64,000 nucleotides of DNA from a candidate division SR1 bacterium (lineage in GTDB: Bacteria; Patescibacteriota; Gracilibacteria; Absconditabacterales; Absconditicoccaceae): contig JAPLUV010000027.1 in the NCBI GenBank assembly GCA_026397395.1, positions 13,533-77,532 on the forward strand, written 5' to 3'. A program made the translations under genes and the position numbers. The notes under the pieces are model-generated. The model was not told the origin of the DNA, ran no database searches, and saw only the letters and a program-made list of their open reading frames with translations. The stretch's first letter is position 1. Every line of letters begins with the position of its first letter. Positions 20,775 through 62,430 of this stretch are shown piece after piece.

Positions 20775-20802
20775 ATAATATATATTAGTATTAAAAAGTC
20801 AA
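20775..20802 (-). promoter_or_regulatory. Promoter of small secreted paralogue 1
   Basis: TTGACT (20802-20797), 16-base spacer, TATTAT (20780-20775), 29 bases upstream of the ATG. The same TTGACT/16-base layout precedes the two paralogues. Confidence 0.5.
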
Positions 20803-20814
20803 TACGAGAATGTC

Positions 20815-20877
20815 CTATAAATTTGTCAAGAGATCCGTGATGATGGAGTTAGATACGTCCATGTCAGAGTCAGGAAA
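20815..20877 (-). repeat. Relic copy of the 3' end of the HemW-like gene
   Basis: About 60 bases closely match 21907-21968, the last codons of the gene at 21908-23239 (minus strand: CATGGACGTATCTAACTCCA and onward). The match stops at the gene end on one side and shortly before the terminator at 20893 on the other. It looks like a duplication remnant. Confidence 0.75.
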
Positions 20878-21867: not shown

Positions 21868-21895
21868 ACTATAAATAAGTAAGGAAAAAAGTCAA
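21868..21895 (-). promoter_or_regulatory. Promoter of small lipoprotein paralogue 3
   Basis: TTGACT (21895-21890), 16-base spacer, TATAGT (21873-21868). It lies just after the stop of the HemW-like gene (21908). Confidence 0.6.
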
Positions 21896-21907
21896 CAAAA
21901 GATTATC

Positions 21908-23239
21908 CTACAAATTTTTCAACACATCCGTGATAATGGAATTAGATACGTCCATGCCAGAGTCAGTTAAGCTTAGTTTTGTTCAGTCAAAGTTTACTAA
22001 TCCTGCTTTCACAAAATCCGCAATCAGCAATCCGTAATTTACAATCAGGCAATCCTTATATTTTGAAATATCACTAATGCCTTCAGCAGTTCTTAATTTC
22101 AAGAAAAATGATTCTATCAAAATATCTTTTTCATTCAGGGAAATAACAGAGGAGTCGTCCTTTCGTTCACCTTTCAGATATGTTTCCAGACTATTCGTAT
22201 TGGTTCGACGCATAGCGTGTGCTAATTGTGTCATCCTGAGAGAATCGAAGGATATATTCGGTTTATTATATTCTTCGCTTTGCTCAGAATGACAAACTTT
22301 TGGATGACAAACAATAAAAGATGAAGCCGAGACTCACAAGCCTAAATAATTTTCCATATTTCGATATACCATATTGTGAATACTTGCACATCATCTTCTA
22401 CAGAAATTAGAAATCTCATATCTCTGGTATCCGAAGTTACTGATCTTCTTTTTTAGTATTTCAAATTCTTTCATAATGAGCTCGTCATTATCGTGTCATT
22501 GCGAACGAAGTGAAGCAATCTCAGTGTTAGGATGGATTCCTTCGCTTTGCTCGGAATGACGAGCGAGTTCATTGTACCATTTTGAATTTTCATGTAATTC
22601 TAAGGTGTATAATGAAAAACTTTCTGCAAACTGACTTTGGACGAATTTCGTAAAAAAGTTTATTCTCGTATCGTCTCGTAATTTTCCGTTCGGTTTAAAC
22701 TTACCGAAGGCGATGAAATCAAAATTAAAAACATTATTCTCTTGTTTGAGATCTCTCAATCATCTCAGAAATTGCGTCATACCTACGAAATTATATGGCC
22801 TGCCAGCTCGTTTCAAAACCGCATCATCCAAACTTTGGATCCCAAAACTAAATCTTATTCTAGGAAATTGTTTATATTCTTTATTTAGTCTTTTTATCAG
22901 ATCATAAATCTGATCCATCGGATACGGATTAAACTCCAAACTGAGTTCGGCGAGATTTTCTACGTTTCGCCTCGTAGTACTACGAGGTTCTGTCTCCTGT
23001 ATTTTTTGTATAATGCGTTGTATTCATTCGAATCAGATGATATTTGGTGTTCCTCCTCAGAAATAAATTGTCTTAATATCTTGCTCGCCAAGCTCCGTTT
23101 TGTAATAATCAATCTCATGTTCCAATGCTTCTAAATAGGCTGGAATGGAATCTTGCATACCAGGAAAAGATGCAAATGAACAGTAATTGCATTTATTTTG
23201 GCAGAAGGGAATATGAATGTATATACTTAGCAAGTGCAA
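21908..23239 (-). CDS. hemW: HemW-like radical SAM protein with in-frame repeat insertions
   Basis: A 443-residue coproporphyrinogen-oxidase-like radical SAM protein; characterised HemW is a haem chaperone. Seen: SIYIHIPFCQNKCNYCSF with the CxxxCxYC cluster-binding motif, the GGGTPN motif after a UGA-Gly at 23057, and FSFGIQSLDDAVLKRAGRPY. The frame (checked for TAA/TAG between the known pieces) runs through two palindromic repeats that add HSEQSEGIHPNTEIASLRSQ near the middle and CHSEQSEEYNKPNISFDSLR further on. These are translated repeats, not family sequence. Stop is TAG at 21908-21910. Whether the organism uses haem is unknown. Confidence 0.85.
22230..22293. repeat. GTCAT...ATGAC palindromic element inside hemW, copy 1
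   Basis: A 64-bp element with inverted ends (GTCATCCTGAGAGAATCGAA ... TTCGCTTTGCTCAGAATGAC). It is translated in frame in the host gene. Related copies: 22495-22560, 30284-30360, 58338-58413. Confidence 0.8.
22495..22560. repeat. GTCAT...ATGAC palindromic element inside hemW, copy 2
   Basis: A 66-bp element (exactly 22 codons), GTCATTGCGAACGAAGTGAA ... TTCGCTTTGCTCGGAATGAC, read in frame within hemW. Confidence 0.8.
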
Positions 23240-47498: not shown

Positions 47499-50400
47499 TT
47501 AGTTAACTTCATTATCTAGAAGAAGTGTTGCTAGTGCATTTAAGAAGGTTTGCTTATCTACCTTAAACGTATCCTGAATATATTGTTCACTCAATTGATC
47601 CATACTGGAGATAATGGAATTGATAAACACAATTCTATTGGAAGTTGATTGATGAATCGCAGATACGATGTCCTTATAAATGGCACTATTTAATATTGTT
47701 GCATCAATATCTATATATAGCTCATCTTGGAACGGCAATGCTACCAACTTAGCAAATTGGCTTCTGGTAATAGTCGTTTTCCCAGCGAAATATTTGGTTC
47801 CATCATTTCTCGTAAATCATTCAATAAATCACATAGATTGTGCAGCAGCTATATATTTATAGTAAGGATTGGTCGCTTTGACATCAGTAAATGTAGTAGT
47901 GGTATTCCAATCCACTTCTCCTGGATGAATTAGGACATATGTTCTCATCATCATAGCTGCTACTTCTTCTCTTGTGGCCATACTATCAGGATGGAAATAG
48001 AGTTTACCCTCTTTTGTTTCATACATGCCGGCAAGTAATCATTTCTTGTATGCAGTATCAGCATATCGAGAAGCCCAGAATGTCCTTGGTATATCAGCAA
48101 AAGGAGTAGCTCCTGGATATGGATTCTCTTCTCTTGTCACACTAATTGTCTTGGTATGTATTCAAAGAAGTTTAACATACGTTTTCATAACGGCAGCTAT
48201 AGTTGCTCATTTTTCTGGGAAATATTTCCACGGAATATCATATCTAGGATATGGATAAAGAGATTTATCCCACTGTCCTCTATGGATACAATTGATACGC
48301 AAAAGTTCTATATATGGGAACGCCCAATTATTAAGACTATCAGGAAATGCTCAGTTGTCTTGATATTTTTCATCAGAGTATTTACATCAGATTCATATAA
48401 GACTTGGAGCTCCATGGCCTCATATTCCTGTTCCAATTGATGTCGTAGATGGGGACGAATGAGAAACAGAACAACACGTGTTGTCATAATAACTTGGTGA
48501 ATAATCTATCCCACTTGTATTAGCACAAGCAAGCGTAGATGGTAATGTACAGGTGTCTATACTTGATGATATTCATCAACCATTAGAACTATTGTGAGGC
48601 GTACAATTTAGGTTACAACCAGCATTTCATCGTCCAATATGTGTAGAATCACTTGGATCACATTGTTCAGTTCAGTTTTTAATTCCATCACCACAAGATA
48701 TAGCCGGAGTAGGTTGTGCTAGTACCTGTAGAGTAGCAACACAAGAACTTCCATATCATACATCGTACATATTATGTATTTGAAGTATTCATGTATATAT
48801 TCATGGTATTGTATATAGATGAGCATAACTTAGCATTCAAGTATGTACGGCACCCGTAGTCCCATCTCAAAAATCTAGCGATGTAAAATCCGTCCATCAG
48901 GTATGTATATTTGATATGGTAAATATTCATGTAAGTGATGCATATCAGGTCAGTGGAGAAACGGTAAGATTACATGTCGGTATTTCAAGTGTACAGGAAT
49001 TACTACATCCATCTCCATTTATATTGTTGCCATCATCACATTGTTCAAGAATATTTTGTTTGATGCCATCGCCACAGTATCTTATCGTCACGTTGTTAAA
49101 CGAACAAAGTCCTGTGTTTAGACTATAGATGTTTTGTACAACAACAGTTGAGTTTACTATTCAACCACTATGATAGAGGATACCAGTGTGGAAGGAAGCT
49201 CAGGTAGTACCATTAATATTTCGAGTATTACTTCGACCATAGTTTAATGTGACAAATTTATATCAAGAAGCATAAGGAAGTGAAAGTATCCCTGTATACG
49301 TTATTGTAGTTGATCATAAATAAGCAGTAGTAGGAGATACATAGAGATTAACACCGCTACAATAATTAGTTTCTATCTGACATGTAGCGCTACAGCCATC
49401 ATTAGAGATGTTATTGTGATCGTCACATTGTTCAGATCAATTTATTACACCATCGCCACAGTATTGTATAGTAACACCACTAAATGAACAAAGTCATGTG
49501 CTTAGACTATAGACATTTTGCACAACAACAGTTGAGTTTACGATTCAACCACTATGATAGATGATTCAAGTATGAAAAGAAGCTCAGGTGGCACCGTTAA
49601 TATTTCGAGTATTGCCTCGGCCATAATTTAGAGTAATAAATTTATATCAAGAAATAGCTGTTCAATAAAAATCTCAGGTATATATTACACTGCCTCAGGA
49701 ATAGATTGTAGTAGGAGATACATAGAGATTAACACCGCTACAATAATTAGTTTCTATCTGACATGTAGCGCTACAGCCATCATTAGAGATGTTATTGTGA
49801 TCGTCACATTGCTCTCCATTTGAAGTTACACCATCACCACAGTATTGTATAGTAACACCACTAAATGAACAAAGTCATGTGCTTAGACTATAGACATTTT
49901 GCACAACAACAGTTGAGTTTACGATTCAACCACTATGATAGATGATTCAAGTATGAAAAGAAGCTCAGGTAGTGCCATTGATGTTTCGAGTATTACCTCG
50001 GCCATAATTTAAGGTAATAAATTTATATCACGAAGCATAAGGAAGAGAAAGTATCCCTGTATACGTTATTGTAGTTGATCATGAATAAGCAGTAGTAGGA
50101 GAAACATAGAGATTAACACCGCTACAATAATTTGATTCAATAGTACAAGAACTACTACAACCATCTCAATTTATATTGTTGCCATCATCACATTGTTCGC
50201 TATTAGTAATTATACCATCACCACAATAGAGGTTCTGATTGACTTGTATAGCAGCAATACATTGCGCAGTTAGCGATCAAGAATAGATATTACTGACTTG
50301 GAAGATTCATGTATAAATTTCCACTCAAGTATAAAGATGAGAATAATTTAATGTTCATGAATTTACATTCCCTGTACCACCATCTCAGAAGTGTAAGAAA

Positions 50401-53400
50401 TCAAAATGCATCCATCCAGTATTAATATTAGAGACAGTATAGGTTCAAGTAAGAGGGATGGCTCAGGTAAGAGGACTAACGGCCAAAGAACAAGAAGGAG
50501 TTAAATAGGTACAGAGATCTAGATCACATCATAGTCATCCGTCACATTGTTCACCAGATTCTATAATTCCATTACCACAACGAGGAAGAACGGTTATTAT
50601 AGCGCTACATTGTGTCTGTATTCCTCAAGAAATAACATTACTAACCTGGAAGATTCATGTATAAGTTCCCGCTCAGGTATAGAGATGAGAATAATTTAAT
50701 GTTCATGAATTTATATTCCCCGTATGTCCATCTCAGAAGTTTAGGAAATCAAAATGCATCCATCATGTATTAATATTGGAGATAGTAAACGTTCACGTCA
50801 ACGCAGCAAATCCAGTAAGAGGAGAAACGATTAAAGTACAATCAGGTCTTCCATAGGTACAATCTTTTTCACATCATGGTCATCCATCACATAGTTCTCC
50901 GGATTCTATAATCCCGTTTCCACAATAAGGAAGAGCAGTTATTGTAGCAGAACATTGTACTGCTATTCCTCAAGAACTAATATTGCTAACTTGGAAGATT
51001 CAGGTGTAGGTCCCTGCTCAGGTATAAAGATGAGAATAATCCAATGTTCATGAATTTACATCCCCTGTACTACCATCTCCAAAGTTTAAGAAATCAAAAT
51101 GCATCCATCACGTATTTATATTAGAGACAGTGAACATTCACGTCAGTGCAGTAAATCAAGTAAGAGGGCTGCCTGTTAAAGTACAAGTTGGTGTTTGATA
51201 AACACAGTCTTTATCGCATCATGGAGTTCCGTCACATTGTTCTCCAGGATCTATTGTTCCATTTCCACAAGAAGGGGAGGTAGTTACCGTAAGAGGACAT
51301 TGTACAGAGACTCTTTCGATATGTAAACCTAATACTCACGTATATGTTCAATCATTGCTATATGTATGCGGATAATTTAAGGTTCGTTGATCTACGGTTC
51401 AAGTGCTTCCATCTCAGAAGTCGAGAGAATCAAAGATTACAATTCCCGTATCAATGGCGCCAGATATAGTATATGTTGTAGTAAATGGAGTGTATCACGT
51501 TAATGGGGCAACGGAGAAAAAATCACAAAGAGACGTGATTTGACATTGATTATTACAGAAATCTGAATTGCTCGAATTACCATCATCACATTGTTCATAC
51601 TGTCCAGAAACATTGGGAGAATCTACAATCCCATCACCACAAAATCAGCCATAAAAGACATCACTCTGAAAATGGGTTGCAAAATAATCATCTGGATTGT
51701 AGGTCTTTCCATATCCATCTCATTGAAATAATTGGGTAACAATTCTCTTTGTCCCATAACCAGAAGATAGCATAATTCATGTAATGGTATCGATAGCTTG
51801 ATCGAGTTTGAAACGGTAAAGATCACCAAAAAGAGAATATGTAATAATCAAGGGATTTCCTCATGCGGTTGCCATAACGGCGAGTCATGAAGTATGTGTA
51901 TATGATGGAAAACCAAGTAACTCTCAGCTAACTTCGAGTACTTTACTTCATATGTATGTACCTGTAGTATATGATCACGATCCTATTAACATCGCTCAAT
52001 CATATATTGTTGGTTGTATTTGATTGAGGATCCCGCTACCATAACTGTACATCATCACTGTGGTTCAGGTGAATATTTTATTTCCTCTAAGACTTACAAA
52101 GCTTCATGATCGATTTAATAAATAAATTCCATCATCATTTCTTGGATTAGTAATGAAATCCCATTTTAGAGGAATCGAGGTATCAAGAGTTCAATTATCT
52201 CGTCAGGCTAATCCATCAGTTCCCGAATAATAGTTCCCTACAGATCACACACCCAAAGCTCCATTACTAAACATTTTATTGTCACCATAATATTTATTGT
52301 CAGTTGAGTCTATACTTAAGTAAGCAACTCAGCCATTATTATAACTCCAGAAATTATTTATATTATTGTCTCTGGATGAATATATAAATCTAATACCATA
52401 GGATTGATTATTATAATTTTGTGTATTATTGATGGTATTTTTGGTAGATTCTTGGAAGGTAATTCCAGCTCCACCATTATTATAACTCTGAGAGTTATTT
52501 ATGTTGCCATATGATGCCCCCAGATAAAAAAATCAATCATCACTATTATTATAACTCTGTACATTATTAATTATACCATAATCCGAATTTTGCAAATAAA
52601 GACCATAGTCATTATTGTTGTAACTCTGACTATTTTCAATTATTCCATAATATGATTCTTCCAGCGAGATACCTGGTCAGCCATTGCCATACATCGCACT
52701 TCTATAAACTCAGCCATTTGGAGATCCGATAAAGTACACTCATCTACTGTCATTATTATAACTTTGACTATTATTTATTGCTCCATATGCAGAATATAAG
52801 AATTCAATACCAGCAAGATGATTATCGTGAATCTTCGAATTTTGTATGGTAACACCAGTAGAATATTGGGCAAAAATACCATATCAGCTGTTACCATAAC
52901 TCTCGCAATTACTTACTATCCCAGATAGTACAATATTAAAACCTATTCCATCGCCAACATTGTCAAATATTTTACTATTATTTATGGATGCCCATGATAA
53001 TCATGCTCGGGAATCTATATAGATACCTTCCGCTCCATTATTGCGGCTTGTGCTATTGTTTATAACACCCGAGATTGATGATTGATTAAACACTATACCA
53101 ATAGATTTATTATCATGTACTCGGCTATTGGCTACGGTTCCATAGTTCGACGAATTATTGAAGAGAATACCATATTGTCCATTATATGCTGCGATAGCAT
53201 TCATCGTAGTGGATGGGCTAAAGAAGAGATGCACTACATAGGCACTATTGCCAGCACTAGATCAAAGATTTCTATCAAGCAAAAGATTATCAAGTATCCA
53301 ATTACTTTTGCTGTTACTGTAGATGAGGTCTGTATTGCTATTATAGTTAGATTGGATAAGAATAGGTCACTTACCCACTAGAGCACTACAGGTTCACATG

Positions 53401-58162: not shown

Positions 58163-58439
58163 ATAGGAGATGGCGAGGAGATTCACAGGCTTTGTGTAGG
58201 ATAAAGTGCAAGTATTGTAGCAGAAAGTTGCTTTTTTTCAAGGTGTAAAAAAACATAAAAAAATCTGAATTTGTCAACTGTTTCTCTTGCATATGAACGG
58301 ATAGCTTTGCCTTTTGAGCAGGATTGCTTATTATTATGTCATTCTGAACGAAGTGAAGAATATAATTATATCCCTGCCTACCGGCAGGCAGGCTTCGTTT
58401 CTCTCAGGATGACACAATGTTTATATTAATCAAAAAATA
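58163..58439. other. Divergent intergenic region with nested palindromic repeats
   Basis: The region between the SbcC-like gene and the sortase. 58338-58413 is a GTCAT...ATGAC element with a 21-bp CCTGCCTACCGGCAGG palindrome (58373-58393) inside it. No gene; promoters for both flanking genes should lie here but no clear box stands out. Confidence 0.7.
58338..58413. repeat. GTCAT...ATGAC element with nested palindrome
   Basis: GTCATTCTGAACGAAGTGAA at the left and CTCTCAGGATGAC at the right. The 21-bp palindrome at 58373-58393 replaces the centre. Confidence 0.8.
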
Positions 58440-61983: not shown

Positions 61984-62430
61984 TTATTCAAATACATATT
62001 TCTCATCATACGGAATATGAAATTTTTCCAATAATCCCAAATATTCATCTCTGAACTCAGTTTTCCTATGATGTTCTTTTTGCCTAAAAATATAATTACT
62101 TACATTTTTTACCTCTGATTGTGCATAAGAAAAACAAGCATAACCACCTTGCCATTGAAATTTATAACTATACCAATCGCTTCCATTGATGAACTTAGCG
62201 CTATTCGCTTTCACTTCTTGCATAAGCTTGGCTGGTGGATAACTAGGGTGAAGAGCTACGAGCATATGCAAATGATCTTCTACATTATTAATTGCCAACA
62301 TTTTACACTGACGATTCTGGACAATGCCAGTAATATATTTCTGTACTTCATCATCATGCTTGGGATGGAGGAGTTGTTGTCTATATTTAGTAGCGAAGAT
62401 GCAATGTAAGTAGATTTGATGATAGGACAT
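61984..62430 (-). CDS. REP-associated tyrosine transposase (IS200-like, Y1)
   Basis: 148 residues. HUH motif in VEDHLHMLVALHPS, N-terminal YHQIYLHCIFATKYRQQLL, and the catalytic Tyr region VSNYIFRQKEHHRKTEFRDE. Size and motifs fit single-domain Y1 transposases of the RAYT/IS200 group. It has no UGA and lies next to a cluster of short palindromes of the REP type, as RAYT genes do. It may maintain or move those repeats. Stop is TAA at 61984-61986. Confidence 0.9.
   Translation of the reverse strand: MSYHQIYLHCIFATKYRQQLLHPKHDDEVQKYITGIVQNRQCKMLAINNVEDHLHMLVALHPSYPPAKLMQEVKANSAKFINGSDWYSYKFQWQGGYACFSYAQSEVKNVSNYIFRQKEHHRKTEFRDEYLGLLEKFHIPYDEKYVFE

Follow-up and report, generated by a model that had tools for sequence, protein, structure and literature searches.

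The HemW-like gene and its repeats

The analysed stretch of 64,000 nucleotides, termed here the window, comprises positions 13533-77532 of contig C9 of a draft genome (G000; 1.25 Mb, 39 contigs) whose gene frames are open only when TGA is read as glycine (translation table 25). On the minus strand, at 21908..23239, lies a HemW-like radical SAM gene that encodes 443 amino acids under code 25, with a TTG start, eight in-frame TGA (Gly) codons and no TAA or TAG. The frame is unbroken under table 25 and broken under table 11, one break falling inside the first of the two repeats that the gene harbors. TIGR00539 (hemN_rel/HemW) is the best NCBIfam match of the ORF (139.7 bits, E 1.2e-40), and the label "HemW-like" is used because this score lies below the curated cut-off of 205.4. 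Pfam Radical_SAM matches the ORF (E 2.2e-15) and HemN_C reaches 23.0, slightly below its cut-off of 24. The 3' end of the gene is spanned by the second copy (21886-21966) of an 81-nt direct repeat, 85% identical to the first copy at 20793-20873; part of the gene's end is thus duplicated about 1.1 kb away. Elsewhere in the window (48600-51600 and 52320-52994) there are long arrays of Cys-rich repeats of ~345-384 nt (CGNGIIESGEQCD-like, minus strand), together with 69-nt repeats, which probably encode large surface proteins.

The first repeat (E1, 22495..22560) is a head-to-head REP dimer of 66 nt, GTCATTGCG...GGAATGAC, that adds residues R227-H249 in frame; its 3' arm contains one of the eight TGA codons, read as Gly248. 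The second (E2, 22230..22293) is a dimer of the same kind, 64 nt long (66 with the outer T/A pair), running GTCATCC...GAATGAC; it is also in frame, adds approximately residues 316-337 and has no TGA in its frame. The insert peptides in the protein are RHSEQSEGIHPNTEIASLRSQGH and CHSEQSEEYNKPNISFDSLRMT; a peptide such as HSEQSEGIHPNTEIASLR would span a REP insert, and SQGHDNDELIMK would include a TGA-coded glycine. The original prediction, made from the sequence alone, had placed two translated GTCAT...ATGAC elements within this gene, and its positions and peptides were correct. Its further claim, that the frame stays open across both, is true because TGA specifies glycine here; under table 11 it fails. 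A third copy in the window (E3, 58338..58413) is intergenic, the next likely start codon lying downstream of it. The loop of E3 encloses a second palindrome at 58373-58392, CCTGCCTACCGGCAGGCAGG. At these same positions and at three further loci (L005, L006 and L060) a third palindrome, CCTGCCTGCCGGCAGGCAGG-like, is recorded; it lies within or close to REP copies, as though REPs were its targets.

An AlphaFold2 model of the protein, built with 24 orthologues, has a mean pLDDT of 86 and a pTM of 0.86. Confidence is low in three segments: residues 238-248 in one insert, 316-328 in the other, and a further loop at 84-89. Values fall below 50 at 238-248 in E1 and at 316-321 and 323-328 in E2, and are about 50 at both inserts as against more than 87 in most other blocks.

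Architecture and dispersal of the repeat

The element consists of two arms with their tags outside, each arm being composed of GTCA, a stem of 4-5 bp, a GA/GA opposition, 2 bp, an NNA triloop and the closing strand. The resulting hairpin has 5 bp, a GA/GA internal loop, 2 bp and a 3-nt loop, and half-sites are 24-26 nt long. E1, E2, E3 and most of the other copies in the genome are head-to-head dimers. Among 25 distinct half-sites from G000, 90.9% of cells pair and six of the seven pairs change on both sides; two-sided changes occur in 37 cells, compared with 11.8 +/- 4.0 after shuffling (0/500), and structures slid along the sequence pair in 25-47%. The half-site pattern was derived from the first copies, which biases its Y/R positions towards pairing, but the two inner pairs, which the pattern leaves unconstrained (NN/NN), covary as well (A-U:G-C 13:11; C-G:U-A 12:8). 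The first two stem pairs are A-U and U-A, each in 21/25 distinct half-sites, and the GTC tag is preceded by T in 36 and by C in 4 exact half-site occurrences, a redundant count over loci of this genome.

Twenty exact half-sites and 16 with one mismatch are present in G000, a total of 36 as against 1 for the reversed control. As judged from pattern searches and from stretches around copies, the repeat is dispersed in approximately 20 or more places in this genome, often intergenic. Of the 287 Patescibacteria genomes sampled, 73 have at least one half-site, and REP-rich genomes have 34-42, where the control gives zero. The repeat thus has the general features of REPs, being an imperfect hairpin of 20-40 nt with many dispersed copies, mostly outside genes. 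Within the window, TTCGCTTTGCTCRGAATGAC with up to three mismatches has 3 matches, compared with 0.00 in 100 shuffles. Folded as DNA, E2 reaches -13.9 kcal/mol (z = -5.6, with 0/200 shuffles as good) and E1 reaches -10.6 (z = -2.6, 2/200). Window shuffles, genome half-site counts against the control and these z-scores rule out chance palindromes. No Rfam family matches the element, and a known RNA family was therefore rejected as its identity.

Empty sites in related genomes

HemW-like orthologues were found in 40 of 59 related genomes. The original prediction had called for a comparison with repeat-free orthologues, and in five congeners (G001, G002, G003, G005 and G008) the loops are shorter and both inserts are absent. 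Matches of the G001, G003, G005 and G008 proteins to the window protein are interrupted at ~215-249 and ~309-343. Following LYTLE, G003 has NIKDKLCPKIYFGTDEEIM (19 amino acids) where the window protein has 42, a difference of 23 as compared to the 22 codons of E1; since the empty sites are about 50% identical, they do not show precisely where insertion occurred or whether a target was duplicated. E1 and E2 are inserts, as these empty sites in congeners show, and their identity as native hemW sequence is rejected.

In other orthologues the loops differ in both sequence and length. Those of G004 (L013) and G007 (L015) carry simple tandem repeats (ATTGAAA... and AATGACTAATGACC..., among others) that are in frame through TGA codons. 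Given this variation in length and the repetitive sequence of other kinds in G004 and G007, both hemW loops can be regarded as generally permissive. The same residues in unrelated genera had been named in the original prediction as what would speak against insertion. This objection applies in part: REP-derived residues do occur in loop 1 of hemW in two other genera, as CHPERSKGSNLDSS...SEGQ in G028 and as a single REP arm, RHCEGNEAI, in G010. They derive from different REP copies, of different REP types, and species of the window's own genus lack them, so a single tolerant loop is taken to have received these insertions separately.

In-frame copies in other genes

A search of the genome for the element inside other genes, also proposed at the outset, revealed in-frame dimers in four further protein genes: priA, an HI0933-like flavoprotein gene, an RlmL-like methylase gene and a polysaccharide pyruvyl transferase gene (PS_pyruv_trans). 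Alignments to solved homologues have gaps of approximately insert size at the corresponding points in PriA (query 143-204 vs 517-545 in 4nl4), the HI0933-like protein (147-172 vs 133-135 in 2gqf) and the RlmL-like protein (27-57 vs 126-131 in 3ldu); the search found no solved homologue of the polysaccharide pyruvyl transferase.

In code-25 relatives, 14 of 60 sampled element loci lie in ORFs that span them, 13 of which have a Pfam family; hosts include tex, infB (IF-2), secA, dus, znuA, MTTase and M24 peptidase genes, among others. A second code-25 sample adds uvrC, uvrD, ligA, rsmB/F, a TraG/S1-like gene and a tetrapyrrole methylase gene. Of 60 elements in code-11 genomes, 6-11 lie in spanning ORFs and 6 have a Pfam-supported host gene, with tsaD, rsmA, wzy and dnaX contributed by a second sample. 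The host ORF is the longest spanning frame in each case, and a Pfam match sets the gene frame in most. In-gene copies number 14/60 under code 25 and 6/60 under code 11 (p 0.085), or 20/81 when the window's own genome is included (p 0.03), the code-11 set covering differing GC contents. This is a weak excess, and with p values of only 0.03-0.085 it was set aside as main evidence. In methylthiotransferase-like genes of two distant genomes, L123 (G028, code 25) and L206 (G128, code 11), a REP dimer sits in the same linker, the one that joins UPF0004 to the radical SAM domain.

Reading phase and TGA recoding

The outer end of the 3' arm is conserved as ...GAATGAC, and its three phases read ..QND, ..RMT and ..SE-TGA-Q. 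The conserved tag carries TGA on this arm, and the last, hydrophilic phase consequently truncates under the standard code: for all of 113 distinct arms from code-25 genomes it is closed when table 11 is applied and open when table 25 is, while the RMT phase is open in 113 and the QND phase in 81. In verified host genes of code-25 genomes, 22 of 24 3' arms are in the TGA phase (...SLRSE-TGA(Gly)-Q; binomial p 4e-9 vs 1/3), as are 13 of 15 (p 3e-5) when the richest genome, G028, is omitted. All eight arms in code-11 host genes are in the QND phase, and each of them has 2-3 mismatches to the arm pattern. The TGA phase also has the lowest hydropathy of the 3' arm (-1.3 vs 0.2 and 0.6). The phases of the 24 corresponding 5' arms are mixed (10/8/6), and the phase bias is thus not merely a matter of fixed element length; CHSE is the commonest 5'-arm phase (10/24) and the one with the lowest hydropathy. 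With TGA recoded, proteins appear able to tolerate the repeat in its hydrophilic phase.

It is also possible, if rather unlikely, that the bias toward the TGA phase reflects the insertion mechanism, by a preference for target sequence or codon phase, instead of peptide selection or the genetic code. The phase is set when an element inserts, and particular target sites can be favored by small hairpin elements, as by those moved by IS200/IS605-type enzymes; part of the bias could thus come from the enzyme's choice of target and not from selection. Weighing against the mechanism as the full explanation, the bias persists across all three element lengths modulo 3, as the mixture of 5'-arm phases indicates, and also in single arms, and all eight arms of the repeat's code-11 relatives stand in a different phase.

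RAYT-like genes and mobility

Two RAYT-like Y1 genes (on contigs C37 and C29) and one IS200-type TnpA gene are encoded in the G000 genome. The RAYT-like genes, at loci L082 and L083, score 61 and 54 bits with NCBIfam REP_Tyr_transpos, below the cut-off of 80, and both are flanked by CCCGGG-centered palindromes. Around the C37 gene (L082, C37:12898-15057) there is a cluster of CACCCGGGTG palindromes, a family with copies at 43 places genome-wide, many of them paired ~55 nt apart; this family and the RAYT-like gene are likely a RAYT/REP pair in a code-25 genome. The genome half-site search found no GTCAT half-sites next to either RAYT-like gene, and no Y1 transposase was matched in G028, the most element-rich relative (42 half-sites). 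A cognate transposase for the GTCAT repeat was therefore found neither by way of the RAYT flanks of G000 nor in G028, and mobilization by the resident RAYT is unsupported, as that gene adjoins the CACCCGGGTG repeats instead.

The TnpA gene is of the IS200/IS605 type and lies on the minus strand of the window at 61987-62430 (NCBIfam transpos_IS200, 74.5 bits, exceeding the cut-off of 55). It has no in-frame TGA, unlike most genes here, and may have been acquired recently from a bacterium with the standard code.

Origin of the inserts

It is very probable that E1 and E2 are separately inserted, non-autonomous REP-type copies in two exposed, variable loops of the HemW-like protein, and that the reading of TGA as glycine decides which copies survive. 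In the process envisaged, a small REP-type repeat, made of two TGTC/CGTC-tagged hairpins arranged head to head over ~64-66 bp, would have entered the two solvent-exposed, length-variable loops independently. Each copy would have been delivered in trans, as single-stranded hairpin DNA, by a transposase that probably belongs to the HUH/Y1 type. Copies would land in any phase, and those that break a gene would be lost. From the open frames, the inserts would be translated, and surviving gene copies would add a hydrophilic, unstructured peptide of 20-30 residues to a protein that presumably still works. Insertion in the DSSLRSE-TGA-Q phase would bring truncation under the standard code and be harmless under code 25. 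Selection may retain soluble, flexible peptides, and the change of TGA to Gly would free the most hydrophilic of the 3' phases for this purpose. A broader proposition, that TGA = Gly opened coding space to a mobile palindromic repeat whose always-truncating hydrophilic phase then became the one preferred for survival, is put forward here at even chances.

Decay of hemW into a pseudogene that merely tolerates the inserts is improbable. Such decay might be suspected from two inserts in one gene, from an NCBIfam score under the HemW cut-off, and from the changes unique to the window lineage, which fall on positions 1/2/3 as 77/58/90 (50/37/72 in G004) and thus show no strong third-position excess. 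The frame of 443 codons is nevertheless open, the CxxxCxxC radical-SAM motif and the residues invariant among the 24 orthologues compared are retained, and a full fold is predicted. Like inserts are also found in priA, uvrD, uvrC, ligA, secA and infB of this or related genomes, and it is unlikely that all of these are pseudogenes. Still harder to credit is that the peptides are native functional parts of the HemW lineage and the palindrome a coincidence or a matter of RNA regulation, a view that can point to the intact gene and to loops of other sequence in many orthologues but is largely refuted by the empty congener sites, and is countered as well by the same sequence at ~20 or more genome places and in a quarter of the phylum genomes sampled (73/287), often intergenic, by covariation of the DNA hairpin, by disorder in the model and by the lack of an Rfam match.

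Relation to known repeats and significance

In-frame insertion of repeats is a rare route from non-coding selfish DNA to protein and has been described in Rickettsia and few other bacteria. Among known systems, the repeat comes close to the CGTC/TGTC-tagged REP super-family of Di Nocera et al. 2013 (PMC3733652), to which the Rickettsia elements RPE-4 and RPE-6 were assigned. Its members are stated there to have no dedicated transposase, in agreement with the RAYT and Y1 results here. Shared features are the unpaired TGTC/CGTC tag, a stem that opens with A-T and then T-A, dimers joined head to head with their tags outermost, and a location that is mostly intergenic and also in frame (20-30 amino acids, often in genes for replication and repair or tRNA/rRNA modification), sometimes twice per gene; in both, the repeats flank no RAYT. 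In contrast to the 8-9 bp stem and 4-5 nt loop of that super-family, the stem here is interrupted by GA/GA and closed by a 3-nt loop. A 3' unpaired tail fitting CCA is not general either, arms being followed by TATAA, TCTCA, CCATC and similar, and the host reads TGA as Gly, with gene copies in the TGA phase.

The original prediction had likened the elements to the Rickettsia palindromic elements, and in-frame insertion of that kind is borne out by the empty congener sites, the genome dispersal and the in-frame copies in other genes. By description, RPE-1 and others are likewise palindromes in frame in unrelated protein genes, to which they add peptides, and in-frame insertion with repeat-free orthologues is found here for hemW, priA and the HI0933-like and RlmL-like genes. 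The host group and genetic code are different, and RPE-1 is longer. The original prediction's further judgement, that the sequence is unrelated to these elements, is qualified by the tag, opening pairs and dimer arrangement shared with the super-family that includes RPE-4 and RPE-6. As in REPINs (Bertels and Rainey 2011, PMC3116915), two inverted REPs form one dispersed, non-autonomous unit; REPINs are tied to RAYT, whereas the resident RAYT here is flanked by the other palindrome. As in other Gracilibacteria/SR1 with genetic code 25 (e.g., PMC4032931), TGA is a sense glycine codon throughout the window and the family ORFs.

No paper in the open-access literature was found to name the element, either by peptide or by DNA string, nor was any found there that links stop-codon recoding to REP insertion. 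In-frame insertion of REPs and RPEs is itself well established (PMC3733652 and references therein), and it is the effect of the genetic code on repeat insertion that appears to be new. If this effect is real, the range of targets open to a selfish element has shifted with a change of genetic code, and the element is lengthening protein loops in code-25 bacteria. A repeat family present in relatives with and without TGA recoding offers a natural experiment on the genetic code as an insertion filter. For annotation and orthology in Patescibacteria, REP-derived peptides such as HSEQSEE, SLRSEGQ and VILNEVKNL are to be expected inside conserved proteins.
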